Source: Halobellus rarus (GTDB lineage Archaea > Halobacteriota > Halobacteria > Halobacteriales > Haloferacaceae). From it: 64,000 bases of DNA. Position 1 is the first letter of the stretch; every line of letters starts with the position of its first letter. Where the stretch lies: positions 62,001-126,000 of the forward strand of contig NZ_JANHDI010000008.1 in the NCBI RefSeq assembly GCF_024494595.1. The letters are read 5' to 3'. Made by a program: the position numbers and the translations under genes. This document shows positions 3,779 to 27,390 of this stretch, piece by piece. The notes below the pieces were generated by a model. The model was not told the DNA's origin and did not search any database. It saw only the letters and a list, made by a program, of their open reading frames with translations.

Positions 3779-4987
3779 ATGGATATCTCTGAGATCCTCT
3801 CCACAAAGTTCACCGAGTTCGACATCGGCACACCGCTCTCGAAGGTCGCCGGGGCCTTCGAGAACCAGGAACTCGATGCCGTCATCGTAACGGACGGCGA
3901 CGAGTATCGCGGCGTCGTTAGTCGCCGACAGCTGGCTTCCTCGTCCAACCAGCCGTCCGCGAAGGTCGGCTCACAGGTACAGCACGTCCCGACGGTCGAC
4001 CGCACCGAGGACGTCCGTGAGGTCGCGCGACTCATGATCGGCAGCGACGCCAAAACGCTCCCCGTACTCGACGACGACCGTGTCGTCGGTGTGGTGACCG
4101 GCGATGCCGTCCTCGAAGCAGTGCGTCCCTTCCTCGACGCAGCGACCGTCGAGGACGCCTACACGGAAGAGTTGATCAGCGCGACCCCCGAAACCACGAT
4201 CGGGAAAGCGCTCAATCTACTTCGAGAAGCCGGGATCGCCCATCTCCCGGTCGTCGACGGGGACGACCTCGTGGGAATGCTGAGCCTGTACGACGTCATC
4301 GACTTCACGACGCGGGGGGGCACTAAGAGCCAGGGCGGTTCGTCGAGCGACTTCGGTAGCCGCGGCGGCGGCGGGCAGAACCGTGGCGGGTTCGGCGCGC
4401 GCGAGGGCGATGCCGACCGGATGCTCGATCTGCCAGTGCGGGACCTGATGTCCGACGCAGTCGCGACGGTCGAGCGGAGCGCACCGCTCGACGAGGTCGT
4501 CGAGACGATGTTCGAGCGGGAGATCTCCTCGCTCGTCGTTATGGCCGACGACACCGCCGATCCGATCGGTATCGTCACGAAAACGGACGTCATCGAGGCG
4601 CTCACCTGGGAGCGCGACGACCGGAACGCCGTACAGGTGATCGGGATCGACTTGCTGGAGGGGATGGACTACGACGGCGTCTCCGCGCTGATCGAGAGTA
4701 TGACCTCGAAGTACGGCGAGATGAGCGTGATCAAGGCCAGCATCGAACTGCAGGAGCACAAGGAACAGAGCCGGGGCGTACCGCTGGTGCTGGCACGGAT
4801 TCGTCTGGTCACCGACCGCGGCTACTTCACGGCCGACGGGGAAGGCTACGGTGCCTCCCACGCTCTCCGTCTCGCAGCGAACGCTGTCGAACGCCAGCTC
4901 CTCAAGGGGAAGACCTACGGCCAGTCGAAGAAGCATCCGGACACGGACGAGCAGGAACAGCTCTACGGCTGGTGGCTCGGCGGGTGA
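3779..4987 (+). CDS. CBS-domain protein with four CBS repeats and HPF/RaiA-like tail
   Basis: 402 aa. Two Bateman modules are visible: CBS motifs near residues 10-65 (DAVIVTDGDEYRGVVSRR), 70-120 (KTLPVLDDDRVVGVVTGD), 130-185 (AHLPVVDGDDLVGMLSLYDV) and 215-275 (SSLVVMADDTADPIGIVTKT). A Gly/Ser-rich linker separates CBS3 from CBS4. The last 110 residues (VQVIGIDLLEG ... LAANAVERQLLKGKTYG) look like a ribosome hibernation factor/S30AE fold. CBS modules usually sense adenine nucleotides, so a nucleotide-gated ribosome-associated factor is plausible, but that role is inference. It has its own promoter region and no operon partner. Confidence 0.75.
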   Translation: MDISEILSTKFTEFDIGTPLSKVAGAFENQELDAVIVTDGDEYRGVVSRRQLASSSNQPSAKVGSQVQHVPTVDRTEDVREVARLMIGSDAKTLPVLDDDRVVGVVTGDAVLEAVRPFLDAATVEDAYTEELISATPETTIGKALNLLREAGIAHLPVVDGDDLVGMLSLYDVIDFTTRGGTKSQGGSSSDFGSRGGGGQNRGGFGAREGDADRMLDLPVRDLMSDAVATVERSAPLDEVVETMFEREISSLVVMADDTADPIGIVTKTDVIEALTWERDDRNAVQVIGIDLLEGMDYDGVSALIESMTSKYGEMSVIKASIELQEHKEQSRGVPLVLARIRLVTDRGYFTADGEGYGASHALRLAANAVERQLLKGKTYGQSKKHPDTDEQEQLYGWWLGG

Positions 4988-14653: not shown

Positions 14654-17200
14654 ATGGACCTCGACTACCAGCGCTTCGTCGACTGGGCGGACGACAAGAT
14701 CGTCAACAGCCCGGAGCGGGTGATGCTCACCTTCCTCCTCGTGACGGTGGTGTTCGCCGCCGGGCTGGGCAACGTCTCCACGGAGGCGGGGACCCAGCAG
14801 TTCGCCGAGGACATCCCCGCGGCGGACGCGCTCGAACGGATCGAAAACGAGTTCGAGCCGCCGTTCAGCTCCGATCCCGGGAGCACCCAGCTCGTCCAGC
14901 GGAGCGGGAACGTGCTCTCGAAGGAGTCGATGCTCGCGATGCTGCGGGCCCAGCAGGCGCTCGAGGAGCGCAACGATATGTACGTCTCCAGCACCTCGTC
15001 GTCCGCGGCGCTCGTGGCGCAGACGATCGACCCGGAGGCGACGACGCTCGAACGACAGATCACCACGCTCGAACGCGCGACGCGGGCGGACGTCAGACAG
15101 GCCGTCCGGGAGAACGCGGACAATCCCGGGTTCACCGGACAGTTGAGCAACGACTTCAACGAGCGATCCGCGTCGGCGTCGGCGACTATCGGCGTCGTGC
15201 AGCACGACCTGCCCGGCGGGGCCGGCGGCGGCACGGCGGGGCAGTCCGGCGACAGTCCGCTGACGCCGATCCAGAAGGACGCCCAGCGTATCATCGACGC
15301 GGAGCTCGACGCCGACATCACCGTCTTCGGCAGCGGGATCATCGCCGACGAGTTCGGCACCGTCATCACGGACTCGCTTCTCATCGTGACGCCTGCGGCC
15401 GTCCTCCTGATCGTGGGCTTTCTCGTCGTCGCCTACCGGGACCTACTCGACCTCATCCTGGGAGTCACCGCGCTGGCGATGGCCGTGATCTGGACGTTCG
15501 GCTTCCTCGGCCTGGCGGGCATCCCGTTCAACCAGATCATGATCTCCGTGCCGCCGTTGCTCTTGGCGGTGGGGATCGACTTCGGGATCCACGCGATCAA
15601 CCGGTACCGCGAGGACCGGGCGACCGGGCTCGACATCGAATCGGCGATGCAGGCGACGACCGACCAGCTGTTGGTCGCGTTCTTCATCGTCACCGGGACG
15701 ACCGTCATCGGCTTTCTCTCGAATCTCGCCTCCGACCTGCCGCCGATCCGCGACTTCGGCGTCGTCGCGGGCGTCGGCATCATCTTCACGTTCTTCATCT
15801 TCGGCATCTTCCTCCCGGCGGCGAAGGTCTGGATGGACCGCCGTCGGGACGGCTGGCCGATCCCGACGTTCAGCCAGCGCCCGCTTGGCGAAGAGGGCTC
15901 GGCGCTCGGCGAGGTGCTCTCGGTGGGCGTCACGCTCGCGCGGACGATCCCGGTGGTCGTCCTCATCGTGATGCTGCTTTTCAGCGCGGGCGCGGCGGGG
16001 TACGCCACCGGCGTCGACACCTCGTTCTCCCAGGAGGATTTCCTCCCGCCGGAGGAGGTCTCGCCGCTGTTGAAGTCACTGCCCGAACCGTTCGCGCCGA
16101 GCGACTACGGCGTCGTCGGGACGCTGAACTTCCTCGAAGACAAGTTCACGAGCACGCAGGGGGGGTCGGTCACCATATACCTCGAGGGGCGCATGGAGAA
16201 CGACGCGGCCCTCGAACGGATCCACCGCGCGGGCGAGGACCCGCCCTCGGAGTTCGTCACTGACGGGAACCGCCGCGCGGAGTCGACGAGCATCGTGACG
16301 GTTATCCAGGATCGGGCCGAGCGGGATCCGGAGTTCGAGGCGCTGGTTGAGCGCAACGACCGGAACGGCAACGGCGTCCCCGACGACAACCTCGACACGA
16401 TCTACCGCGAACTGGAGTCCTCGTCGGCCGGCGACAGTGCCTCGCAGTACCTCGCGGAAGATCACCGCAGCGCGCGCGTCGTCTACACGGTCTCGGCGGA
16501 CGCCACCGACCAGGAGGCCGTGGCCGCGGCGCACGAGGTCTCCGATCGGTTCCGCGTGGACGCGACGCCGACGGGGCAGACGGTCGTCTTCCAGGCGGTC
16601 TCGGATCTCATCTTCACGTCCGCGATCACGAGTCTCGCGCTGGCGCTCAGCCTCACGGTGGTGTTTCTGGTGGCCGTCTACTGGGTACTGGAGGGGCTGC
16701 CGTCGCTCGGGATTGCGAACCTGGTGCCGATCGTCGTCGCGGTCGCCTCCGTCGCGGGGACGATGCGCCTGCTCGACATCTCCTTTAACGCATTCACCGC
16801 GACGATCCTCTCGCTGACGATCGGGTTGGGCATCGACTACTCGGTCCACGTCGTCCACCGGTTCGTCGACGAGCGCCGCGAGCGGGCGCTGATCCCCGCA
16901 CTCCGCCGGACAGTCATCGGCACCGGCGGCGCGCTCCTTGGCAGTATGGCGACGACGGCGTTCGGCATCGGTGTGCTCGTCCTCGCCGTCCTCTCGGTGC
17001 TCGGACAGTTCGGCGTGCTGACGGCTATCTCGATCGTCTACTCGTTCCTCGCGTCGCTTCTCGTCCTTCCGTCGGCGCTCGTGGTCTGGGACCGCTTCGT
17101 CAACGGCGATCCCGAGGTGCCGATGGGATACCCCGACGACGGTGAGGCGGCGATGGCGGCCGACGGCGGGGTCGTCGTCGAATCACCGTCGGAATCATAA
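14654..17200 (+). CDS. RND family transporter (HAE3/MMPL type)
   Basis: 848 aa, the usual length for archaeal HAE3 exporters. An N-terminal helix (VMLTFLLVTVVFAAGLG) is followed by a large external loop, then five membrane helices with the conserved GIDFGIHAINRYRE motif. A second helix (PVVVLIVMLLFSAGAAGYA), loop and five helices follow with the matching GLGIDYSVHVVHRF. This internal duplication and the paired GxxxDYxxH motifs, which carry proton-relay acids, define the family. It would export hydrophobic compounds or lipids using proton or cation flux. It is co-transcribed with the exported CARDB-like protein and probably repressed by the divergent TetR. Confidence 0.92.
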   Translation: MDLDYQRFVDWADDKIVNSPERVMLTFLLVTVVFAAGLGNVSTEAGTQQFAEDIPAADALERIENEFEPPFSSDPGSTQLVQRSGNVLSKESMLAMLRAQQALEERNDMYVSSTSSSAALVAQTIDPEATTLERQITTLERATRADVRQAVRENADNPGFTGQLSNDFNERSASASATIGVVQHDLPGGAGGGTAGQSGDSPLTPIQKDAQRIIDAELDADITVFGSGIIADEFGTVITDSLLIVTPAAVLLIVGFLVVAYRDLLDLILGVTALAMAVIWTFGFLGLAGIPFNQIMISVPPLLLAVGIDFGIHAINRYREDRATGLDIESAMQATTDQLLVAFFIVTGTTVIGFLSNLASDLPPIRDFGVVAGVGIIFTFFIFGIFLPAAKVWMDRRRDGWPIPTFSQRPLGEEGSALGEVLSVGVTLARTIPVVVLIVMLLFSAGAAGYATGVDTSFSQEDFLPPEEVSPLLKSLPEPFAPSDYGVVGTLNFLEDKFTSTQGGSVTIYLEGRMENDAALERIHRAGEDPPSEFVTDGNRRAESTSIVTVIQDRAERDPEFEALVERNDRNGNGVPDDNLDTIYRELESSSAGDSASQYLAEDHRSARVVYTVSADATDQEAVAAAHEVSDRFRVDATPTGQTVVFQAVSDLIFTSAITSLALALSLTVVFLVAVYWVLEGLPSLGIANLVPIVVAVASVAGTMRLLDISFNAFTATILSLTIGLGIDYSVHVVHRFVDERRERALIPALRRTVIGTGGALLGSMATTAFGIGVLVLAVLSVLGQFGVLTAISIVYSFLASLLVLPSALVVWDRFVNGDPEVPMGYPDDGEAAMAADGGVVVESPSES

Positions 17201-17317: not shown

Positions 17318-17440
17318 GGTAAATTGCCTCGGGGTCAAGGCCCGAGGCTCTCGCGTGGACTCCCGTTCTACCCACTAACAGTGGGAGGCGAATACTCACC
17401 GTTCACGTTCAGGATCCCGCGATTCAAGCGCACATCTACG
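17318..17440 (-). ncRNA. Candidate omega-RNA region at TnpB right end
   Basis: On the minus strand, beyond the 3' part of the broken tnpB, two hairpins can form: CCCAC-TGTTA-GTGGG near 17373-17387 and the 8-bp stem GCCTCGGG/CCCGAGGC at 17326-17333 and 17341-17348. The region ends in GGCAATTTAC at the junction with ISH3-like DNA. TnpB omega-RNAs arise from the transposon right end with the guide just outside. Here the guide would read back across the start codon of the ISH3-like gene. No transcript is proven. Confidence 0.5.
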
Positions 17441-18632
17441 GGTGCGCCTCCGTCGTTTGCGTATTGCCGACGACGGGGATACTGCAAACCGATATTCTTC
17501 GAAGCGTTGTAGTCGTCGTGGTTCTCGTCCCGCACCTCTGACAACAGAACGATTCGCCCGACCGATTGTCGTCGTGGGTACACCCGCACGTCGAATACCG
17601 TTTGGACGTATTCCAAGGGCCAACCTGTACGACTGCCACGCCGTACTCCTCGGCTTTGTACTCGGCGTACTCATAGAGGCGCCGGAATGTCCAGATGTGT
17701 TGCCACGTCGCCTCCGAGATGTTTTCCCGAATATGGGTTAAGTCCTCAAACACGATGTGTGAGCAGTCGTGTTCGACAGCCTCCTCAATGAGTTCTTTTC
17801 CCACCGAGTGCAAGTATATCTCGAAACGGCCTGTTTCTTGGCGACCGACATTTTCGATATTCTCGTGGCCGTAACGAGAACCTCCTGCTGGAGCGACCCC
17901 ACAACGCTTCTCGTACTCGTTGCGCCAGTGGTTGAACTCTTCTGCTGGCCAGAATCGCCCTGTTGAAGCAACAGCGATGTTGTTGACACCTAAATCCACA
18001 CCAGGGACTGTTCTGTGCTTGGAATCGGATTCGAGCGGCTCCTCGTCTATCTCGGCCTTTCGCATTGAGGCGTGGAGATACCAGTCACTGTCGCGGTACT
18101 GCAAGTGTGCCATCCGAAACTCGAAGTCCTCGTCGGAGACGTACTTGGTTGGCGGCGTCTCCGTGCCGTCAGGGAGAATGTAGTCACACTCGACTCGCCC
18201 GTCTACGGTAGACAGCGAAACATAGTCGCGGTGGAACGTCGCGCTCCGCTTGTCGTACACCGCACTATCTGCCGAAAAGTGCGGTTGCGACGCATTTTCG
18301 CTATGTTTGAGGTGTTCGACTCCGCTTTTGACGGCTTCGACCGCTCGCCGAATCCCTTTCTGAACGAGATTCGCGGTGAGATCGGTTTCGTTGCGGAGCT
18401 GGTCGTAGAGGTCGTGTTCGGCTTTGGCTTTTGAGGTGACGTGGTAGCCGTCGTCGTCACCAGAAACGCTCGGCGTTTCTGGTTGGCAGCCCGATTCTGT
18501 CGGAATCTGGTGACGCCCGTGCCAGCACCACTCGCTTGCAGTGTTGACACAGTGTTTGAATTGCTCGACAGCCTCTCGAAAGGAATCGTCGGCTTCCTTT
18601 CCGAAGTCAAGCCTCGGAATATCCGCCTTCAC
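17368..18632 (-). pseudogene. tnpB: tnpB, frameshifted (IS200/IS605 group, TnpB-only element)
   Basis: The main frame opens at 18632 (MKADIPRLDFGKEADDSF) and keeps RuvC-I (VPGVDLGVNNIAVA), RuvC-II (HIVFEDLTHI) and the zinc finger start (CGCTH, CCQRCG). At about 17529-17531 one G is missing from a G-run on the coding strand: the frame goes to an aberrant [11 protein letters not shown] tail, while the correct continuation ([17 protein letters not shown], then a tail ending [10 protein letters not shown]) is in the next frame down to 17368. The third catalytic Asp lies beyond the shift, so the product should be inactive unless the ribosome slips. There is no tnpA. Confidence 0.85.
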
Positions 18633-18641
18633 TCTTCTGTG

Positions 18642-18735
18642 AAACAGCCGTCTCGTGCCGCTTCTTTGGTGCTATTCAGGTACCTTGATTTTGCAACGAA
18701 ACCGAACTACCTGTCTCCGGGGAAGGACTTTCTCG
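18642..18735 (+). pseudogene. ISH3-like transposase fragment
   Basis: About 30 codons (VKQPSRAASLVLFRYLDFATKP, with a changed ending) align with residues 8-35 of the intact transposase at 10811. The first codons lie on the far side of the TnpB element at 17299-17312. After about 18735 the similarity stops, so the element is truncated. Confidence 0.7.
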
Positions 18736-19138
18736 CTGTCACGAAAGACGACTGTCTCATCTTGTCTGTACGATCACTGTTGCCGAACGGCCGGTGGACG
18801 ACTGTGCGGTTAAGTTCTGATGCTTGCGGGGATCGCTCACCGGGGCGAGATATAGATACTAAATATGATAGTTCAAACCACTCTCGTCTTCGAGGGCATT
18901 TCCCAACCCTAGAATAATCGGTTATCAAGCGGTTAGGGATAAATTAACGATTATCTCCGTCGTTATTCATTCACTTACGGCAGAAAACATATATCGGGGT
19001 AAATCCATCATTGATTCGCCCCTACCCCCGAAGTCGGCTGCGGCACGGAGTAGTCAGTCGCTCTCGCTCGCGGACGCGGCCGTGAGAGTGGACTGTCGAA
19101 ACCTGCTGTGGTCGCACTGAACACAAACGAAACAAACA
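18736..19138 (+). promoter_or_regulatory. Promoter and leader of first S-layer gene
   Basis: No gene lies here. AT-rich DNA at 18925-19000 includes TATA-like acatatat near 18987. A block at 19019-19059 (cccctacccccgaagtcggc and onward) recurs before the second S-layer gene at 22537-22577, as does the last 40 bp before the ATG (aaacctgctgtggtcgcact). Conservation between the two leaders suggests promoter or 5' UTR function. Confidence 0.6.
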
Positions 19139-21991
19139 ATGACAGAACGAAACTATACACGAAAGGCACGTGCGCTGTTTCTCGCAGCGCTGATGGTCTT
19201 CAGCGTTTTCGCTGGGACCGTTGCGTTTGCGGGCACGACAGCGGCTTCTGTAGACTCCCTAGACAACGCGAGTGCTACAGATGTCGACGCGTACAGTGCT
19301 TCAGCCGAACAGGAAGTAACGTTTGATGTAGGTGTCGCGGATGGTGAGGAAGACACCTTCACTATTGACGTCAGTACCGTTGATGACATAACACTGAATG
19401 ATGTTGCAGGTGTTGAATCAAGTAACCCAGATGAAGTGAGCGTCAGTGCCTCCACAGACGGGGATACTGCTGAAATCACTACCACTGACGAAAATGATGA
19501 TGGCGTCTCTGAGGCAACAATCACTGTCACCTTGGACGTCGACACCGATGGTGTGGCACACACCGTTGATATCGGTGCCTACACAGTCAACGAGGATGGT
19601 GGTGCTGCAACTGCTGACACCAACACCTTCTCTGTTATCCCACCAGACGGTGACCAGACGCTCGACTCTGGCTCAACCTTCTGGGCCGGTCAGGAACTAG
19701 CACTTGGGACTGGCGCTGAACTGAGTGCCAACGACGAACTCCAAGTCCGCGAATGGGATACCAGCGGTGACACCAATCGAATCGGCGGTCTCGAAGAAGA
19801 GTTCTCGCTTGATGGTGACGGTGTCGCCACGCTTGACACCGGCGACTATGACGATGGTGAGTACATCATCGTTGATGCCGATAACTCTAACAATGCTGTC
19901 GAATTCACTGATGGGTTCGCTAGCGCTACCTCTACCACCGCAGCCGACTACGGTGGGTACACGTTCGAAATAACGACGCAGAACCTCGACGTTGAGATCG
20001 ATGAGGACAGCGTCACCGACGATGGTGAAAACGCTGTCACCGAGATCGATGTCGACTCCAACCGAGCGAATTACGAACTCAACGTCAGTGCAAACGGTGA
20101 CCTCGACGTCAGTGAACTTAGCGATATCTTCGTAGCTAACGGAGATTACCAGCTCGAAGACGACAACGCTAACGATGACGATGACGAGATCACCATCACC
20201 CTTGATGGCACGACCGCCGAGGGCGATGGACAAGAAATCAGCTTCGAAGGGATCGATGCAGGTGAATACGATTTCACCTTCAGTGTCCCTGACTCGACAG
20301 CTGAAAGCAGCGACACTGTCGAAGTGACGGAACAGGACATCGACTCCGCATTCAGCCAGGGCGTCTCCTCGGATACAGCCGGTGACATCGCAGAGTTCAC
20401 CGTCGAGCTCGAAGACACCGACGAGATCTACGTCCAGTTCGGTGACGAGGACGTCGGTTTCATCGACGTGCTCTGGCTCGAAGATGACGACGACGACGGC
20501 GAGGTTACCTTCGAGGTCAACACGCGGACGCTCGGTAGTCCCGGTGCTGATACCGCTGAGGTGTACCACTCCGAGGACGATAACATCGAAAGCGAGGTCC
20601 ACGGTGACGACACGGATGCGACCTTCTGGGACGAAGACACCGACTCCGAACTCGGTGACGGGACCTTCGGGGACTACCTCGAAGAGCTCGATCTGATCGA
20701 CGATGTTGACGACGATCCGCGGACGCAGCTCACGCGGCCACTGCAGCCGGCCGACTACGAACTGATGGCCGCGGCGAACGGCGAATTCATTGTCAACAGC
20801 GATGGTGACACTGAGGCCGAGAGAGAAATCGACTCGGCGCTGTTCGAGCTAACGGCACCGAGCCTCGATGGGATCACGACGCATGTCGCCCCCGAGGACA
20901 ACGCTGATGCGGACGACGAACTCGAAGATCTCCTCGATGCGGCTACTGCACGCGAGGAGATCGCCGAGGATGACCGTCTCATCATCCAAGTTGAGGCCTC
21001 CGGCCTCTACGGTGCGATCGTCCACGCCAACGGTGGCGACTTCAGCGTCCTCGAGGACGGCACGACGCTCGCCTCCCTCGGCGTCCTCACGGGGGAAGAC
21101 ACGGACGAGCAGGACTGGACAGGAGAAGGAATCTCCTTTGACGTCGAGGCCGACGATGCCACGGGCAACCAGGAAGCCACCTCGCTCGACTTGGAAAACA
21201 ATAACGCGGGCGACGGCTACGTGCTCTACGACGAGGAGAATGGCCAGTTCTTCGTTGTTGTTGATACCACGGGTGACGCCTTCACCCAGGACGTCGGAGA
21301 CGGTGACGAGTTCGACGTGACAATGGAGTACGAGACCGACTCCAACGACCGCTACGAGTTCATCGACGACGCAGAGGCTCCATACGAGGGTGGTGCTGGT
21401 GGTGACATTGGCGACGAAGCGTACCCGTACTTCCAGACGGGGTCCTCTGAAGAGCTCACTAGCACGGTTGAGATTGTCGAGCAGTCAGTCACGTTCGATA
21501 ACGTGAACAACGGCGTGCTCGAAGTCGAAGCGGGCGAAGAGGCAACAATCTCGGGTATGACGAACATCGCGCCCGGCTCGGACGCCGAGATCCGCGTCTC
21601 CTCGACGGATGCCGACCCGTCGTTCCGCAGTACGTCTGACGTCGACATCGAAGATGACGGATTCTTCGAGGCGACGTTCGACTTCAGCGAGCAGTCTGAA
21701 GGCGACCTTGCTGATACGACGTTCCGTGTCGGCGGCAGTTCGGTCGACACGATCGACACCGAACTCGTCGACGCTGTGAGCGAAGAGACGGACACGCCGG
21801 AACCGGATACGGACACGCCGGAACCGGATACGGATACGCCGGAACCGGATACGGATACGCCGGAACCGGACACGCCCGAGCCCGATACAGACACGCCCAC
21901 CGAAACGGATACCGGAACACCCGGCTTCGGTGTGGTTGTCGCACTGACGGCGCTCATCGCTGCAGCCCTGCTTGCGGTTCGACGCGACTGA
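19139..21991 (+). CDS. csg: S-layer glycoprotein with PGF-CTERM anchor, copy 1
   Basis: 950 aa, highly acidic. The N-terminus (MTERNYTRKARALFLAALMV, then FSVFAGTVAFAG) is the classic haloarchaeal S-layer signal peptide. The body is beta-rich with tandem Ig-like units and scattered sequons (NASA, NVSA, NNAG is not one). A Thr/Pro/Asp stalk of 7-residue repeats (DTDTPEP) follows, then the PGF motif in TPGFGVVVALTALIAAALLAVRRD, the signal for archaeosortase ArtA cleavage and lipid attachment. It would form the cell-surface lattice. It is about 70% similar by eye to the downstream gene through the central region but has an extra N-terminal domain of about 90-100 residues. Confidence 0.93.
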   Translation: MTERNYTRKARALFLAALMVFSVFAGTVAFAGTTAASVDSLDNASATDVDAYSASAEQEVTFDVGVADGEEDTFTIDVSTVDDITLNDVAGVESSNPDEVSVSASTDGDTAEITTTDENDDGVSEATITVTLDVDTDGVAHTVDIGAYTVNEDGGAATADTNTFSVIPPDGDQTLDSGSTFWAGQELALGTGAELSANDELQVREWDTSGDTNRIGGLEEEFSLDGDGVATLDTGDYDDGEYIIVDADNSNNAVEFTDGFASATSTTAADYGGYTFEITTQNLDVEIDEDSVTDDGENAVTEIDVDSNRANYELNVSANGDLDVSELSDIFVANGDYQLEDDNANDDDDEITITLDGTTAEGDGQEISFEGIDAGEYDFTFSVPDSTAESSDTVEVTEQDIDSAFSQGVSSDTAGDIAEFTVELEDTDEIYVQFGDEDVGFIDVLWLEDDDDDGEVTFEVNTRTLGSPGADTAEVYHSEDDNIESEVHGDDTDATFWDEDTDSELGDGTFGDYLEELDLIDDVDDDPRTQLTRPLQPADYELMAAANGEFIVNSDGDTEAEREIDSALFELTAPSLDGITTHVAPEDNADADDELEDLLDAATAREEIAEDDRLIIQVEASGLYGAIVHANGGDFSVLEDGTTLASLGVLTGEDTDEQDWTGEGISFDVEADDATGNQEATSLDLENNNAGDGYVLYDEENGQFFVVVDTTGDAFTQDVGDGDEFDVTMEYETDSNDRYEFIDDAEAPYEGGAGGDIGDEAYPYFQTGSSEELTSTVEIVEQSVTFDNVNNGVLEVEAGEEATISGMTNIAPGSDAEIRVSSTDADPSFRSTSDVDIEDDGFFEATFDFSEQSEGDLADTTFRVGGSSVDTIDTELVDAVSEETDTPEPDTDTPEPDTDTPEPDTDTPEPDTPEPDTDTPTETDTGTPGFGVVVALTALIAAALLAVRRD
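21788..21898 (+). repeat. 21-bp tandem repeats coding the S-layer stalk, copy 1
   Basis: About four full units of acggacacgccggaaccggat, encoding DTDTPEP, are followed by a shortened unit and a degenerate one. They encode the Thr-rich stalk just before the PGF anchor. The units differ by single bases, so they are young enough to slip. Confidence 0.85.
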
Positions 21992-22007
21992 ATCGAACGA
22001 CTAACCA

Positions 22008-22023
22008 CCGGGCTTTCGCCCGG
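22008..22023 (+). terminator. Hairpin terminator after S-layer gene 1
   Basis: A perfect 6-bp stem ccgggc-tttc-gcccgg lies 17 bp past the stop codon and is followed by a pyrimidine-rich cttccctttctttcgg. The same layout, with a different stem but the same downstream tract, follows the second S-layer gene. Confidence 0.6.
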
Positions 22024-22687
22024 CCGTCGACTTCCCTTTCTTTCGGACGCGACACCCGAGAGCGACAGTGATTGATTGTTGGTTGTCCTCGCTGAGTCTT
22101 ATCACCCGCCACTCGTCCTTTGTTGGAACTTTCGACACCACAGAGCACCGAATTGTGTCGCAGGCGGACGTCAGACATGAGTCGACAGCGTTTGGCGAGA
22201 TGGTTGGGTAATTGTGCCTTTGCTTTCGCGACGGTCACTCGTTGACGTCAGCTTCACGAACGTGACCTTCGACGATCTATGAATGGGCCGTTCATTAAGT
22301 CACTGCGCAGGCGGGCGATGCTGAGAGAGCCGGCAGTCACACGGATCCTCCAAGAACGGGAGCATCGCCCAGTCAGCAGGAGATCAGTTAGTAATCGTGG
22401 GCTCTGCTTACATTCCACTGCTGTCCTGCAAACCATCCGGTTGATCGGATTAACAGCCACTTACTCGTTATGAAGCTTGTAACTTGTACCGCTCAGATAC
22501 ACAAGACATTTAACACAATGGCAGTGACGTTTCAGTACCCCTACCCGAAAGTCGGCTGCAGTATGAAGTAATCAGTCACGCCCGGCTGGTCGGAACCCAG
22601 AGATACAGTCGGTCCACGTCGACGGCGGGGGATGATGGCTGCTTGAAACTGCTGTGGCTGCACGCGAATGCGAACACACGACAAATA
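22024..22687 (+). promoter_or_regulatory. Spacer, promoter and leader of second S-layer gene
   Basis: No gene is supported in this 664-bp spacer. A 10-bp inverted repeat gggcgatgct / agcatcgccc (22313-22322 and 22361-22370) could form a large hairpin with a 38-nt loop. A TATA-like acatttaac lies near 22506-22514. The block at 22537-22577 (acccctacccgaaagtcggc and onward) and the last 40 bp before the ATG are copies of the leader of S-layer gene 1. Confidence 0.55.
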
Positions 22688-25225
22688 ATGACAGAACGAA
22701 ACTATACATACAAGGCACGCGCGCTGTTCCTCGCAGCGCTGATGGTCTTCAGCGTTTTCGCTGGGACCGTCGCGTTTGCGGGCACGGCCGCTGCTAACGC
22801 AGAACAGACAGATAGTGACGTGACCCTCAACTCGGGGTCCACGTACTGGGATGGTCAGGAAGCCGGTATCTACATCCCGGACGATGTAGACGGTGACACC
22901 ACCTCCACTACTGACTACCAGGTTCGATCGTTCGATCCCGACGGCAACGACGGGAGCGGCTCGATCGGCGGTCTCGAAGAAGAATTCTCCCTCGACGGGG
23001 ATGATCGTACGGCCGTCATCGACACCAGCGGCTACGATGGCGAGTTCGTCATCACACCCGCCGATGACAGTAGCACCGCGATCGTCTTCGTTGACGGAAA
23101 CGCGGACAGCACTGAAACTAGCGACGGTAACCTCGAAGATGCCGCCTTCGAGGTGACCACGCAGAACCTTGACGTCGAGATCGACGAGGACAGCGTCAAC
23201 GACGAAGGTGAAAACGCTGTCACCGAGATCGACGTCGACTCCAACCGCGCGAACTACCAACTCAACGTCAGTGCAAACGGTGACCTCGACGCTGGCGAAC
23301 TCAGCGACATCTTCGTGAACAACGACGGCGATGACGCTGACTACCAACTCATTGACGAGAACGAAGGTGACGACGATGAGATTACTATCGCCCTTGCGGA
23401 GAACTCTGAAACTGCCGAGGGCGACGAACGGGAGATCAACTTCACCGGTATCGATGAAGGTGAATACGGCTTCAACTTCAGCGTCCCTGACTCGACGGCT
23501 GAAAGCAGCGACACCGTCGAAGTGACCGAACGCGACACCGATTCCTCCTTCAGTGAAGGCGTCACCACCGACACCGCCGGTGACATTGCCGAGTTCACCG
23601 TCGAAATGGACGACACCGACGAAGTGTGGGTCCAGTTCGGTGACGAAGACGTCGGCTTCATCGATATCCTTCGTCTTGAGGACGACGATGATGACGACGA
23701 AGTGACCTTCCAGGTCAACACCCGTACCCTCGGTACGAGTGCTGATCGTGACGATGTGTACAACTCCGAAGACGACATCGTCGAGAGCGAGGTCCACGAT
23801 GACGACACCGGTGCGACCTTCTGGGACGAAGACACCGACGAGCAACTCGGTGGCGGTGAGTTCGTCGACTACCTCGACGAACTCAACCTCATCGACGCTG
23901 ATGGCGATGCGGATGAAGATGACGTCGACGAGCAGCTCACGCGGCCGCTACAGCCCGCCGACTACGAGCTGACGGCTGCGACTGACGGTCAGTTCATCGT
24001 CAACTCCGATGGTGAAACTGAGGCTGACGAAGAACTCGACTCGGCGCTCTTCGAGCTGACCGAGCCCGGCATCGAGGGCGTTACGATCCACAAGGCGTCC
24101 GCCGACAATGCCGACGAGGATGACAACGTCGCCGATCTCCTCAACTCGACGACCGCCATCGAAGGCGGCGAGGAAGTCGCGATGGACGATCGCCTTGTCG
24201 TTCAGGTTGAAGCAACTGGCCTCTACGGCGCAGCCGCCTACGAGGCTGATAGCGGCTTCGACGCCCTCGAAGACGGTACCACGCTCAACCAGTTTAACCG
24301 CATCCTCACGGATGATAACCACGGTAACAACTGGGCGGGCGAAGGTATCAACTTCGAGGTTGAAGCCGACGACGCCACGGGCAACCAGGAAGCGACTTCC
24401 CTGGACCTGACTAACAACAACGCAGGCGATGGCTACGTGCTCTACGACGAGGAGAACGGCCAGTTCTTCGTCGTCGTTGACACGAGCGCTGACAGTAACG
24501 TCTTCAGCGACGAACTCGACGAAGGCGCGGAATTCAGCGCGGAATTCGAGTACGAAACCGACAGCGACAACCGCTACGAGTTCAACAGCGAGAACCCGGC
24601 ACCGTACCAGGGTGACGCTGGTGGCGACGGCGACGGCGACGCCGCGTACCCGTACTTCCAGGCAGACTCCACGCAGACGGAGTCGACCTCCTTCACCGTT
24701 GAAGAGCGGACGGTTACGTTCGACAACGTGAACGATGGTGTCCTGGAGATTCCGGTCTCGGACTCCGCAGAAGTGACCGGCACGACGAACGTCGCGCCCG
24801 GTTCGGACGCTGAAGTGCGGATCTCCTCGACGGACGCTGATCCGTCGTTCCGCAGCACGGCTGACGCTGAAATCTCCGAGGACGGCACGTTCTCGGCGGA
24901 GTTCGACTTCAGCGACCAGTCTGCAGGCGACCTCGCTGAGACGACGTTCCGCGTTGCGGGCAGCTCCGTCGACACGGTCGACACGGAACTGGTCGAATCT
25001 GTGAGCACGGAGACTGACGCTCCGGATACGGAGACTGACGCTCCGGATACGGAGACTGACGCTCCGGACACGGAGACTGACGCTCCGGACACGGAGACTG
25101 ACGCTCCGGACACGGACACGGCAACTGAGGAGCCGACCTCGACGTCCACGCCCGGCTTCGGTGTGGTTGTCGCGCTGACGGCCCTCATCGCCGCTGCCCT
25201 GCTCGCAGTCCGCCGCAACGACTAA
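22688..25225 (+). CDS. csg: S-layer glycoprotein with PGF-CTERM anchor, copy 2
   Basis: 845 aa from the ATG at 22688, chosen because the signal peptide MTERNYTYKARALFLAALMV there matches copy 1; a frame from 22643 adds 15 residues. Long stretches match copy 1 closely (TTQNLDVEIDEDSV; VDSNRANYQLNVSANGDLD; DSTAESSDTVEVTE; QFGDEDVGFIDIL). It lacks the extra N-terminal domain of copy 1. Its stalk uses a different 7-residue unit (TETDAPD) before STPGFGVVVALTALIAAALL. It has its own leader and terminator, so it can be expressed independently. Which copy dominates cannot be seen from sequence. Confidence 0.93.
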   Translation: MTERNYTYKARALFLAALMVFSVFAGTVAFAGTAAANAEQTDSDVTLNSGSTYWDGQEAGIYIPDDVDGDTTSTTDYQVRSFDPDGNDGSGSIGGLEEEFSLDGDDRTAVIDTSGYDGEFVITPADDSSTAIVFVDGNADSTETSDGNLEDAAFEVTTQNLDVEIDEDSVNDEGENAVTEIDVDSNRANYQLNVSANGDLDAGELSDIFVNNDGDDADYQLIDENEGDDDEITIALAENSETAEGDEREINFTGIDEGEYGFNFSVPDSTAESSDTVEVTERDTDSSFSEGVTTDTAGDIAEFTVEMDDTDEVWVQFGDEDVGFIDILRLEDDDDDDEVTFQVNTRTLGTSADRDDVYNSEDDIVESEVHDDDTGATFWDEDTDEQLGGGEFVDYLDELNLIDADGDADEDDVDEQLTRPLQPADYELTAATDGQFIVNSDGETEADEELDSALFELTEPGIEGVTIHKASADNADEDDNVADLLNSTTAIEGGEEVAMDDRLVVQVEATGLYGAAAYEADSGFDALEDGTTLNQFNRILTDDNHGNNWAGEGINFEVEADDATGNQEATSLDLTNNNAGDGYVLYDEENGQFFVVVDTSADSNVFSDELDEGAEFSAEFEYETDSDNRYEFNSENPAPYQGDAGGDGDGDAAYPYFQADSTQTESTSFTVEERTVTFDNVNDGVLEIPVSDSAEVTGTTNVAPGSDAEVRISSTDADPSFRSTADAEISEDGTFSAEFDFSDQSAGDLAETTFRVAGSSVDTVDTELVESVSTETDAPDTETDAPDTETDAPDTETDAPDTETDAPDTDTATEEPTSTSTPGFGVVVALTALIAAALLAVRRND
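25007..25111 (+). repeat. 21-bp tandem repeats coding the S-layer stalk, copy 2
   Basis: Five consecutive units of acggagactgacgctccgga plus one base encode TETDAPD. Only one position differs among units (gat or gac). The unit length matches that of copy 1 but the sequence is different, so the stalks expanded independently after duplication. Confidence 0.88.
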
Positions 25226-25228
25226 CTA

Positions 25229-25244
25229 CCGGAGCTAACTCCGG
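25229..25244 (+). terminator. Hairpin terminator after S-layer gene 2
   Basis: A perfect 6-bp stem ccggag-ctaa-ctccgg stands 4 bp past the stop codon, followed by cctttcgacacattcctttc. The tract attcctttctttcggacgc is nearly identical to that after copy 1, so the 3' flank was duplicated with the gene. Confidence 0.6.
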
Positions 25245-25442
25245 CCTTTCGACACATTCCTTTCTTTCGGACGCTACAACCCAAGAGCGACAGCCAACGA
25301 GTACACTTCGTGTCGTGATACAGTGACGAGCGCATACCCCATCTTTTGGCGGGGGAAAGCGGACATAGCGTCCACCTCCACTAAAGGCCGCTTCGCTGGA
25401 ATCCGCAAGCTTTAGTCAGTACCAAGGGATCTGCGGGATAGG

Positions 25443-25889
25443 ATGCTTCGAGTTCGGATCCCACTTGTCCCACGGTCGCTTCGGTGGGGTGTCGTCCTCG
25501 CGGTCGCGGCGACGATTCTGTATTACTCTGTCTTCACGCCCCCGGGTAGCGGTATCATCCGGACCGGCCCCTTTGGCGTGCTCGCGTATGGAACGTGGCT
25601 TCACGGGCTTGCCTACGCCGGGCTTGCAGTCACGCTTGCGTACGCCTTCCAGGATCGTCCGTGGCGTGATCGAACCGTCTTGCTCGCTGTGTTTTTGGTT
25701 GCTGTCGGATACGGCGCAGGGATCGAGCTACTGCAGTCGACGCTTGAGACGCGGACCGCCGATATCGTCGACCTGCTCGTGAACGCGGCCGGGGCGGCGA
25801 TTGCTGCCGTCTGTTGGCGACTCCTGGCGCGACGGGTTCGGTTCTATCGCGCGCGGCGACTGGCGGCCCTCGAGATGCCGGTGCAGTAA
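25443..25889 (+). CDS. VanZ-like membrane protein
   Basis: 148 aa with four hydrophobic helices (LRWGVVLAVAATILYYSVF; WLHGLAYAGLAVTLAYAF; TVLLAVFLVAVGYGAGIELLQ; DLLVNAAGAAIAAVCWRLL). The sequence between helices 3 and 4 (GIELLQSTLETRTADIVDLLVNAAGA) is the VanZ family signature: E-x-LQ, then R-x-DxxDxxxN. The family is named for teicoplanin resistance but its archaeal role is unknown. It is monocistronic, about 200 bp past S-layer gene 2. Confidence 0.85.
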   Translation: MLRVRIPLVPRSLRWGVVLAVAATILYYSVFTPPGSGIIRTGPFGVLAYGTWLHGLAYAGLAVTLAYAFQDRPWRDRTVLLAVFLVAVGYGAGIELLQSTLETRTADIVDLLVNAAGAAIAAVCWRLLARRVRFYRARRLAALEMPVQ

Positions 25890-26168
25890 CGAGTCCATTC
25901 AAATACACGCAGTCGCCGGACCTTTCTCAGCGAGGGACGGCCGACAGCGTGATCGGGATGAGAGAGGGGAACCGTATCGATTCGCTCGGGATCGTCGCTT
26001 GCTTGCCGGAGTGGATAAGCGAGGCAGCTCCCGCTGAAAACGTAGTGTCTGTTTGTAGTAACGATGTGGTGCTTCCCGGGTGGGGGTCCGACTGGCGACT
26101 GCTCGGAGAGCCGGAAGCTAAGACGTTTTTCCCCGACAAGGAGCGAATCTCTACTCTGTAAATTCTCG
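25890..26168. other. Spacer without a supported gene
   Basis: A plus-strand frame (25814-26161) crosses this stretch but overlaps the VanZ gene extensively in another frame and has no recognisable product. Nothing else is seen. Confidence 0.4.
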
Positions 26169-26597
26169 TTACTCGGGACGGGGCATCTCCTCGATTTCAG
26201 CGATCTCGCCGGTCTTCTCAACGCGAGCGTACTGTCGCTGCCAGGCGTCCTCCGGGAATAGATCGTTTCGATCGAATAGCTCTCGGGCTTCCGGGGTGAT
26301 CTGATAGAACTTGTACGGGTACCCACGCACGCGATTGCCCGGCTCAACGACCAGCTCCGCAACAACGCCGATATCTTGTAACACCCTGAGATGTCGACGG
26401 ATCGCGTCCTCACCGAGCGCAGGGTTCATATAGTCGAGTTCTTGGACGCTCGGAGCTTCTTGTGGGTGGCCGACGATGTCTGCGATCAAGTTTGCACGGG
26501 TTTGATCAGTAGCCTTCTGGAGTGCCGTCCACGCTTCGAACCCATCGGGCTCTCCACCAGTGTCCGCCGTGTTCGTCTCTGCGAGGTGGGGATGCAT
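26169..26597 (-). CDS. Winged-helix transcriptional regulator
   Basis: 142 aa from the ATG at 26597 (MHPHLAETNTADTGGEPD). The middle region forms a winged helix-turn-helix: QTRANLIADIVGHPQEAPSV, then QELDYMNPALGEDAIRRHLRVLQDIGVV, and the wing ELVVEPGNRVRGYPYKFYQI. The PYKFYQIT ending of the wing is typical of haloarchaeal ArsR-like regulators. The target is unknown. The divergent neighbour at 26713 is the nearest candidate, sharing an AT-rich promoter region. Confidence 0.75.
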   Translation of the reverse strand: MHPHLAETNTADTGGEPDGFEAWTALQKATDQTRANLIADIVGHPQEAPSVQELDYMNPALGEDAIRRHLRVLQDIGVVAELVVEPGNRVRGYPYKFYQITPEARELFDRNDLFPEDAWQRQYARVEKTGEIAEIEEMPRPE

Positions 26598-26712
26598 ACG
26601 CGCTACTACGGATAGGTGGAGCATAAACACTTGGTTGCTAGATGCAATCGATTACTCAAGTAGTTACCTAACCAGTATCACTATCAAACTACAAACTAGA
26701 TAATGGTGTAGA

Positions 26713-27390
26713 ATGCCAGACGGTGACGCCGATGACAGCCGCGATACTGTTCGTGGTGATATCGACGGTGAGAGACGTGATGACGACGATGCTGTCAGTG
26801 AGGCCATTCACCACTCAGAAACAGGTCTTATTGGCGACATCGAAGATGGGGAACTCTATGATGAAGCGACGTTGTCTCTCACACCCGAGCAACATCAGCG
26901 ACTCAAGGACGGGCTCCACGGGGCCCGTTTTGACGATATCCGTCGTGCCAGCCGTCGGTATCTCGTGGTCGGTAGCGGATCGAGTGAGTCCGGGGAGCGT
27001 CGCCGGCGCGTGTGTTCCCGGTTGGATGACCGGCGGGATGCCGTCGCGTTCCGGTTAGAGGAGTTCGGGTTCGATGCTGACGACCTTGATCTGTGGGCGC
27101 CGGCCTTCGAGGTGTTGTCGGCGCAGGCGACGTGGGTTGTCGGCGTGATCGAAGACTTCGACGGCGGCTATGTCTGGGAGCTTGGCTACCTGTATCGACG
27201 GCAGACGAGTGTGCGAGATGTGTTGTGGCTCCTCAAGCGTGTGTACGACGATCTGGAAGAACAGCGGGCGCAGTACGAGAATGGGATGGCCGCGTCCCAC
27301 TTGGCCGCCCTTGAGGCAGCGGTGGGCGAACGGGTCGTAGAGTGGTCAACTCTCGATGAGCTCGATAGCGCCGTGGATCGGATCCCGTGA
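26713..27390 (+). CDS. Conserved haloarchaeal protein, NDT/TIR-like fold suspected
   Basis: 225 aa, acidic N-terminus without secondary structure up to about residue 55. The rest reads like a Rossmann-type fold: YLVVGSGSS strand, a charged helix, then LWAPAFEVLSAQATWVVGVIED, and a GGYVWELGYLYRR motif. The D-x-GGYVWELGYL pattern resembles the active-site helix of nucleoside 2-deoxyribosyltransferase-like and TIR-like proteins, where a conserved Glu does catalysis. I think it belongs to the DUF7509 group but cannot confirm. Function is unknown; a role in nucleotide signalling or defence is speculation. Confidence 0.6.
   Translation: MPDGDADDSRDTVRGDIDGERRDDDDAVSEAIHHSETGLIGDIEDGELYDEATLSLTPEQHQRLKDGLHGARFDDIRRASRRYLVVGSGSSESGERRRRVCSRLDDRRDAVAFRLEEFGFDADDLDLWAPAFEVLSAQATWVVGVIEDFDGGYVWELGYLYRRQTSVRDVLWLLKRVYDDLEEQRAQYENGMAASHLAALEAAVGERVVEWSTLDELDSAVDRIP

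Follow-up and report, generated by a model that had tools for sequence, protein, structure and literature searches.

A structured leader RNA, predicted from homology and covariation, precedes a tandem pair of S-layer-type genes in Halobellus rarus and S-layer-type genes of many other haloarchaea

Tandem S-layer genes of haloarchaea are already known, and the pair described here, genes A and B in a stretch of 64,000 nucleotides (nt) of the Halobellus rarus genome (contig NZ_JANHDI010000008.1, positions 62,001 to 126,000; hereafter the window), is a further case of a known kind. The closest described pair is csg1/csg2 of Haloarcula hispanica, whose two genes we presume to be adjacent. Like A and B, csg1 and csg2 (G0HV85 and G0HV86) encode two paralogous S-layer glycoproteins, which are both reported in the coat (PMC9943897, PMC8875312) and are made together (PMC9943897; the names csg1/csg2 are from PMC8640222). 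They differ in being other members of the family, and the cited passages contain no leader element. Halorubrum lacusprofundi also carries two S-layer genes in one genome, Hlac_2976 and Hlac_0412, for which an advantage with respect to viruses has been proposed; unlike the present pair, they are 41% identical and, by their locus numbers, not neighbours, and an escape mutant lost one of them (PMC10544981). That multiple S-layer proteins may aid virus evasion is already in print (PMC8640222, PMC10544981). In Haloquadratum walsbyi HBSQ001, csg (HQ1207A) and HQ1205A/HQ1206A form a comparable cluster of surface glycoproteins, two of which are highly expressed together, whereas the neighbours of csg are described as larger surface glycoproteins (PMC5496347); strain differences at this csg island were attributed to recombination and transfer (PMC3119063, PMC4535781). 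Further, in the solved S-layer of Haloferax volcanii the dome is made up of the domains D1 and D2, the first of which differs greatly between haloarchaea (PMC8640222). Polyploid haloarchaea are well known to undergo gene conversion (PMC8223754, PMC11276520); our literature search on haloarchaeal gene conversion turned up no paper on S-layer pairs.

When 145 haloarchaeal genomes were searched with the model NF041335 (ArtA-dependent S-layer glycoprotein), 144 gave a match, five of them above the cut-off of 1100 bits. Head-to-tail pairs of this type were found in at least 18 of the 87 genomes listed, one of which possessed five such genes in a row. Tandem S-layer genes are therefore ordinary in haloarchaea, and the contrast drawn in the first-pass annotation, that most haloarchaea rely on one main S-layer protein, did not hold.

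Genes A and B lie head to tail and encode PGF-CTERM surface glycoproteins (Table 1). The list of open reading frames starts B at TTG 22643; we adopted ATG 22688, because it gives the same MTERNYT start as in A and lies at the end of the leader model described below. BLASTP aligned the two proteins over 806 positions with 63% identity, and their first 36 residues were 94% identical. Profile searches detected halo_sig_pep, the BGTF surface domain and PGF-CTERM in both: the haloarchaeal surface-glycoprotein signal peptide TIGR04207 scored 43.2 and 46.6 bits (cut-off 24.6), PF18204 (PGF-CTERM) 31 bits in each (cut-off 18.8) and TIGR04126 43.6 and 46.5 bits, the anchor coming after a Thr/acid-rich stalk. 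The scores were below the whole-protein cut-offs of the NF041335 equivalog (115 and 123 bits; cut-off 1100) and of TIGR04216, the HVO_2072 family of S-layer glycoproteins (73 and 67 bits; cut-off 400). The predicted structure of A was poor (mean predicted local distance difference test score 46), being confident only at residues about 770-880, and a sequence search of the PDB gave no match. From homology and from the leader, the two proteins would form a surface lattice.

The first-pass annotation had described near-identical signal peptides and a shared PGF anchor in the two copies, an extended N-terminal domain in the first copy alone and differing stalk repeats, and the searches and alignments confirmed all of these. 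Residues about 37-165 of A (about 130 residues) had no counterpart in B. Sequence in this region was also present in the array copies of other species, so that B looks like the shortened one. The stalk repeats of A and B have a common period of 21 nt and unlike units. The GC content at third codon positions (GC3) was 0.38-0.65 in the first 420 codons of A (19139-20400) and 0.63-0.83 later; a comparable dip was observed in the N-terminal part of the A gene of a sister species (G005).

Upstream of each gene lies a copy of the block CCCCTACCC. The window contained only these two copies, at 19019 and 22538 (0.26 expected; 3 of 100 shuffles reached two), in agreement with the matching leaders noted in the first-pass annotation. 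Genome-wide, 12 copies were found; those of A and B were the only ones before an S-layer-type gene and nearly all others sat within long open frames, so that a role of CCCCTACCC as a general-purpose element was not borne out. The leader consists of an unpaired UACCCCUACCC and then a covarying hairpin. Its 5' motif is the CCCCUACCC block, for which pairing with ribosomal RNA is conceivable, and downstream of CCCCTACCC comes a long hairpin with a near-invariant AGTA (45 of 53 leaders) and usually GAAA. The predicted fold of the leader of A had an energy of -45.8 kcal/mol. We take the AGUA/GAAA part of the hairpin to be a loop-E/bulged-G-like motif, and we place the mRNA 5' end of A and B at ACCCC on the assumption of the usual archaeal TATA spacing and on that alone.

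The same arrangement was found far beyond this genome. Upstream of S-layer genes of the genus and of Halohasta there was CACAAAGTATTTACC, and about 25-30 nt further GTACCCCTACCC. A strict pattern combining promoter and leader matched 161 of 391 genomes of the class (42 of 86 genera), usually with one copy; the reversed control gave none among the matches listed, and all 30 fetched loci lay before an S-layer-type gene. The leaders of A and B did not fit this strict pattern but fitted a covariance model, R1, which gave good scores in the window for these two only. R1 yielded 102 matches in 77 of 145 haloarchaeal genomes, representing 28 of 58 genera; by a hand count, 9 of the matches were training rows and 93 were not. 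The genes behind all 102 matches were of the S-layer type (30 and 50 examined, and 22 in arrays, genus loci or the window). When 80 of the proteins were scanned with NCBIfam, all matched halo_sig_pep, 63 matched NF041335 and 6 the Haloferax csg model; the other 22 were judged from sequence. In one genome (G127), an N and a duplication in the assembly gave four R1 matches for two genes; the leader there is duplicated around the N (locus L132, about 2542-2736), probably an assembly artefact.

R1 is not exhaustive, as it misses some leaders. We sampled 18 model-negative stretches, of which two had no usable start; among the remaining 16 S-layer-type genes, six had an exact CCCCTACC with a TATA-like box and three had it with one mismatch. 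No gene was recognised in the loci L143 and L147, and the start was misplaced in L146. A further locus, L141 (G090:C2:320500-340499), contained a run of five S-layer-type genes, and upstream of four there was a TACCCCTACC block, exact or with one mismatch.

Several comparisons point to a conserved RNA structure. Of 30 leaders, 27 were aligned and three failed the start-codon rule; in a larger set, 53 of 75 leaders were retained as less than 93% alike, and the model alignment A2 consists of 28 rows drawn from those 53. RNAalifold alone detected a basal stem of eight pairs, with double changes in five. In 57 model-aligned leaders, whose alignment was made to the model and thus leans towards structure, 92.5% of pair cells were paired compared with 83.3% in shuffles, and there were 33 double changes compared with 9.2 (0 of 500 shuffles in both cases). 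In an alignment-free test, the 5' and 3' arms of the same leader paired better than reassigned arms (mean -24.5 vs -21.0, standard deviation 0.48; 0 of 5000), and the leader's own 3' arm was the single best partner in just 4 of 53 leaders. Rfam 15 gave only a chance miRNA match, far under the cut-off, in positions 18800-25500 of the window and no match in eight leader loci. Judged by homology and covariation, the element is a structured leader of S-layer mRNAs.

Structured mRNA leaders are a known kind of element; the S-layer leader RNA adds a new family to them, and this is the new part of the finding. No description of it was found in the open-access literature, and a term search of the main text of the Haloferax start-site paper found no mention of the S-layer gene. 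In the stabilising leader of bacterial ompA and in eukaryotic 5' terminal oligopyrimidine mRNAs, too, the 5' end of a very abundant mRNA bears a conserved motif or hairpin; the analogy is one of working only, as the domain of life and the motif differ. The S-layer leader most likely acts in the mRNA, where it would set the stability or translation of a very abundant transcript. We consider it probable, with some reserve, that it constitutes a class-wide family of cis-acting RNAs: leader-bearing S-layer mRNAs would start with ACCCCUACCC(A) and carry a long hairpin with near-invariant AGUA and usually GAAA, a dedicated factor or the ribosome would bind the element, which would set output, and copies without a leader, such as the third S-layer-type gene described below, would have a minor or conditional role.

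In three genomes of the genus, the own genome (G000), G005 and the Halobellus rufus draft (G008), the array of S-layer-type genes sits after the same MMPL gene. G008 has three copies (A, M and D) and G005 two plus C, its A, B and C being consecutive. In G000, C lies elsewhere, about 68 kilobases from A and B on the same contig, and is 47-50% identical to them; with C beside A and B in G005, the array of G000 is broken by a rearrangement. A tree of the coding sequences grouped the copies by genome (support 100/100 for A and B of G005, 100/99 for A and B of G000 and 99/99 for A, M and D of G008), and C was orthologous across the three species.

The tree by itself suggests recent duplication, but the flanks say otherwise, because the promoter of A and the leader of B group with those of other species. 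The promoter regions of A and B were no more alike than shuffles (z-score -0.1), whereas the 70-nt promoter region of A resembled the position-1 promoters of G005 (z 8.4) and G008 (z 6.4); the leader of B most resembled the one preceding the second gene of the G008 array (z 14.6). This comparison of flanks rests on a small sample and is clear for promoter A only. The 3' flanks of A and B matched over 28 nt with 86% identity (repeat family D14), as the first-pass annotation had reported.

Nine genomes of another genus (g29), with one tandem S-layer pair each, gave a clearer picture. For the promoters and for the 3' flanks alike, the closest sequence was the one at the same position in another species (18 of 18 cases each). 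At codons 36-300, in contrast, 15 of 18 genes were nearest to their genome mate, with 88.7% identity within genomes and 72.1% across them. The coding sequence, mainly its N-terminal part, is thus homogenised within genomes and the flanks are not, which is the pattern expected of a gene-conversion pair, with flanks related by position and coding sequences by genome. The leader was 94% conserved across the species, compared with 72-83% for the coding sequence.

A mosaic was observed in gene A of the window. At its best break (Table 1), 91 of 124 informative residues to the left were B-like and 31 of 114 to the right (0 of 2000 shuffles); residues 281-340 were 85% like B and 48% like G008_A, and residues 561-660 51% and 82%, respectively. 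G008_A showed the mirror pattern relative to its mate M, with a break at residue 451 (97 of 137 vs 24 of 112; 0 of 2000 shuffles). Further, fourfold degenerate sites of A and B were identical at 20 of 23 positions in one segment and 13 of 15 in a second, and agreed in about 53% outside them (126 of 237, summed by hand). Recombination between the copies, raised as a possibility in the first-pass annotation, thus appears as a strong pattern in the nine g29 pairs and as a mosaic in A.

These results bear on four other explanations. The CCCCTACCC block could be a DNA promoter or initiator element only, the likeness of the hairpins being incidental; its near-fixed spacing from the TATA-like box and the start site expected at the block from the archaeal spacing assumed above are in line with this, but stem covariation, the cognate-arm test and the conservation of the g29 leader above that of the coding sequence make it unlikely. 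A recent tandem duplication of the entire transcription unit, specific to this lineage and with later divergence of the copies, would account for the grouping by genome, the 94% identical signal peptides, the similar leader and 3' flank and the two segments of near-identical fourfold sites. It would not account for the unlike promoters, of which that of A resembles those of G005_A and G008_A, for the closer likeness of the right part of A to G008_A, for the low agreement of fourfold sites elsewhere or for a leader that is class-wide, and we regard it as improbable. Thus, of the first-pass claim that the genes were duplicated as whole transcription units, the two tandem transcription units are supported and the recent whole-unit duplication is not; the leader match as a footprint of duplication was likewise dropped, as the leader precedes S-layer-type genes class-wide.

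Independent duplications of the coding sequence in each lineage at a conserved position-1 gene, each copy with its own upstream sequence and with no gene conversion, are rather doubtful, if a little less so. Such a history agrees with the varying copy number and with the lack of a clear likeness among the B promoters of the three species; the likeness of the G000_B leader to the second array gene of G008, the mosaic breaks in G000_A and G008_A, and the g29 pairs, whose flanks on both sides are conserved by position in each of the nine species although N-terminal sequence is common within genomes, argue against it. The first-pass annotation also proposed that the pair could allow switching of the coat; in such a pair, one gene would be on at a time, as selected by virus or salt stress. 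The promoters of A and B differ, which would agree with this, but there was no positive evidence for it: no inverted repeats that could turn round a promoter or gene were present, just two incidental inverted pairs occurring in 18000-27000 (no search aimed at a recombinase was made), a promoter-like box and leader are retained in both copies, and the outer regions are homogenised, not diversified, within genomes. Switching is accordingly quite unlikely.

On balance we favour the view that A and B belong, as neighbours, to an old array of coat genes that are expressed together; in this array the coding parts would exchange sequence and the flanks stay in place. The following observations weigh against this view and against the generality of the leader. 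Some S-layer-type genes lack the leader: among the 16 sampled model-negative genes, 7 had neither an exact nor a one-mismatch CCCCTACC. In g29, codons 301-600 and 601 to the end were nearest to the mate in just 6 of 18 genes each, and the signal peptides were likewise mostly not homogenised (4 of 18). Third codon positions of A had no significant break (381 of 2000 shuffles), so either the exchange in the window pair happened long ago, or selection on residues accounts for part of the pattern. G005_A had no break (1049 of 2000 shuffles), and that of G000_B relative to G005_B was weak (62 of 2000). There was no clear positional ortholog for the promoter of B (best z 3.5), and the promoters of G008_M and G008_D were only weakly alike. 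Finally, the pattern tests all use related sequences, and the shuffles therefore overstate certainty.

If A and B are such array members, each gene would be its own transcription unit, with a position-specific promoter, as indicated by sequence comparison, and a dedicated structured leader that may set mRNA stability or translation. As each gene would have its own promoter and a dedicated S-layer leader, we predict that the two are expressed together and provide the main coat. Both proteins would be exported, lipid-anchored via PGF-CTERM and built into one two-component lattice. Within the genome, the coding parts are homogenised in patches, chiefly in the outer N-terminal region, presumably by recombination or gene conversion; this may keep two co-assembling subunits compatible and may allow both copies to acquire a new outer domain.

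The surroundings of the array and its counterparts were also inspected. A TnpB-like gene with a Cas12f1-like TNB domain lies on the minus strand just upstream of A (17436-18632), and the corresponding site in Halobellus rufus (L036, about 4036-4320) retains a remnant of its C-terminal part. The middle array gene of this draft was not counted as a decaying copy; its frameshift is probably a sequencing error, because the conserved MMPL gene of the same draft is also frameshifted. The third S-layer-type gene C of G000 (L039:5502-9787, about 153501-157786 of contig C22, outside the window; 1167 amino acids (aa) as trimmed) has a gene for a 211-aa transposase directly upstream, and CCCCTACCC was not found in its upstream sequence. 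A fourth, distant S-layer-like protein of 1054 aa with a signal-like start is encoded on the minus strand at C22:6651-9038 (L147:2146-5310), with no PGF motif and no CCCCTACCC nearby. The closest named relative found was Halobellus rufus (58%), and the other two loci found came from two Halohasta species. B was matched in 16 of 17 genus genomes searched, many of the matches being distant. Several genus genomes carry tandem pairs or triples of a second S-layer type in stretches without the MMPL gene (L043, L044 and L045-L052, at another locus); these start MTGNTNK-like, and in many cases the leader block of the second array gene is degraded. The 3' flanks of A and B (22001-22057 and 25229-25281) contain a short CCGG-type hairpin and TTTCTTTCGGACGC, common to many S-layer genes of the genus and a possible terminator or element of the 3' untranslated region.

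Table 1. Features of the S-layer-type gene pair in the window (positions of the window; promoters are predicted)
Feature	Position	Strand	Details	Basis
MMPL/RND-type gene	14654..17200	+	synteny anchor upstream of array in G000, G005, G008	profile search, synteny
Promoter region of A	18947..19018	+	TATA-like ACATATAT about 18988-18995	sequence comparison
S-layer leader RNA element of A	19017..19138	+	CCCCTACCC at 19019-19027, then hairpin	model R1, 64.7 bits; training row
Gene A, S-layer-type surface glycoprotein, PGF-CTERM	19139..21991	+	950 aa	profile and BLASTP searches
Extra N-terminal region of A	19247..19633	+	residues 37-165, low GC3	alignments, GC3 profile
Best mosaic break in A	20855..20857	+	residue 573; left like B, right like G008 position-1 gene	break test
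Stalk repeat of A	21781..21894	+	acidic/Thr/Pro, 21-nt period	repeat family D1
3' flank of A	21992..22057	+	short GC hairpin, then TTTCTTTCGGACGC	sequence, repeat search
Promoter region of B	22466..22537	+	ACACAAGACATTTAAC, TATA-like about 22507-22514	sequence comparison
S-layer leader RNA element of B	22536..22687	+	CCCCTACCC at 22538-22546	model R1, 58.3 bits; training row
Gene B, S-layer-type surface glycoprotein, PGF-CTERM	22688..25225	+	845 aa	profile and BLASTP searches
Stalk repeat of B	25006..25140	+	21-nt period	repeat family D1
3' flank of B	25226..25281	+	contains TTCCTTTCTTTCGGACGC	repeat family D14

In most haloarchaea the S-layer serves as the main cell wall; it is also a virus receptor. 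An RNA element that marks S-layer genes in 28 of 58 genera gives a handle on the control of abundant archaeal proteins; the leader could predict which S-layer-type gene in a genome is the working coat, and is a possible expression part. Further, the tandem pairs provide a natural test of gene conversion in polyploid archaea: their outer domains match inside one cell and vary from one species to the next, with the promoters remaining fixed.

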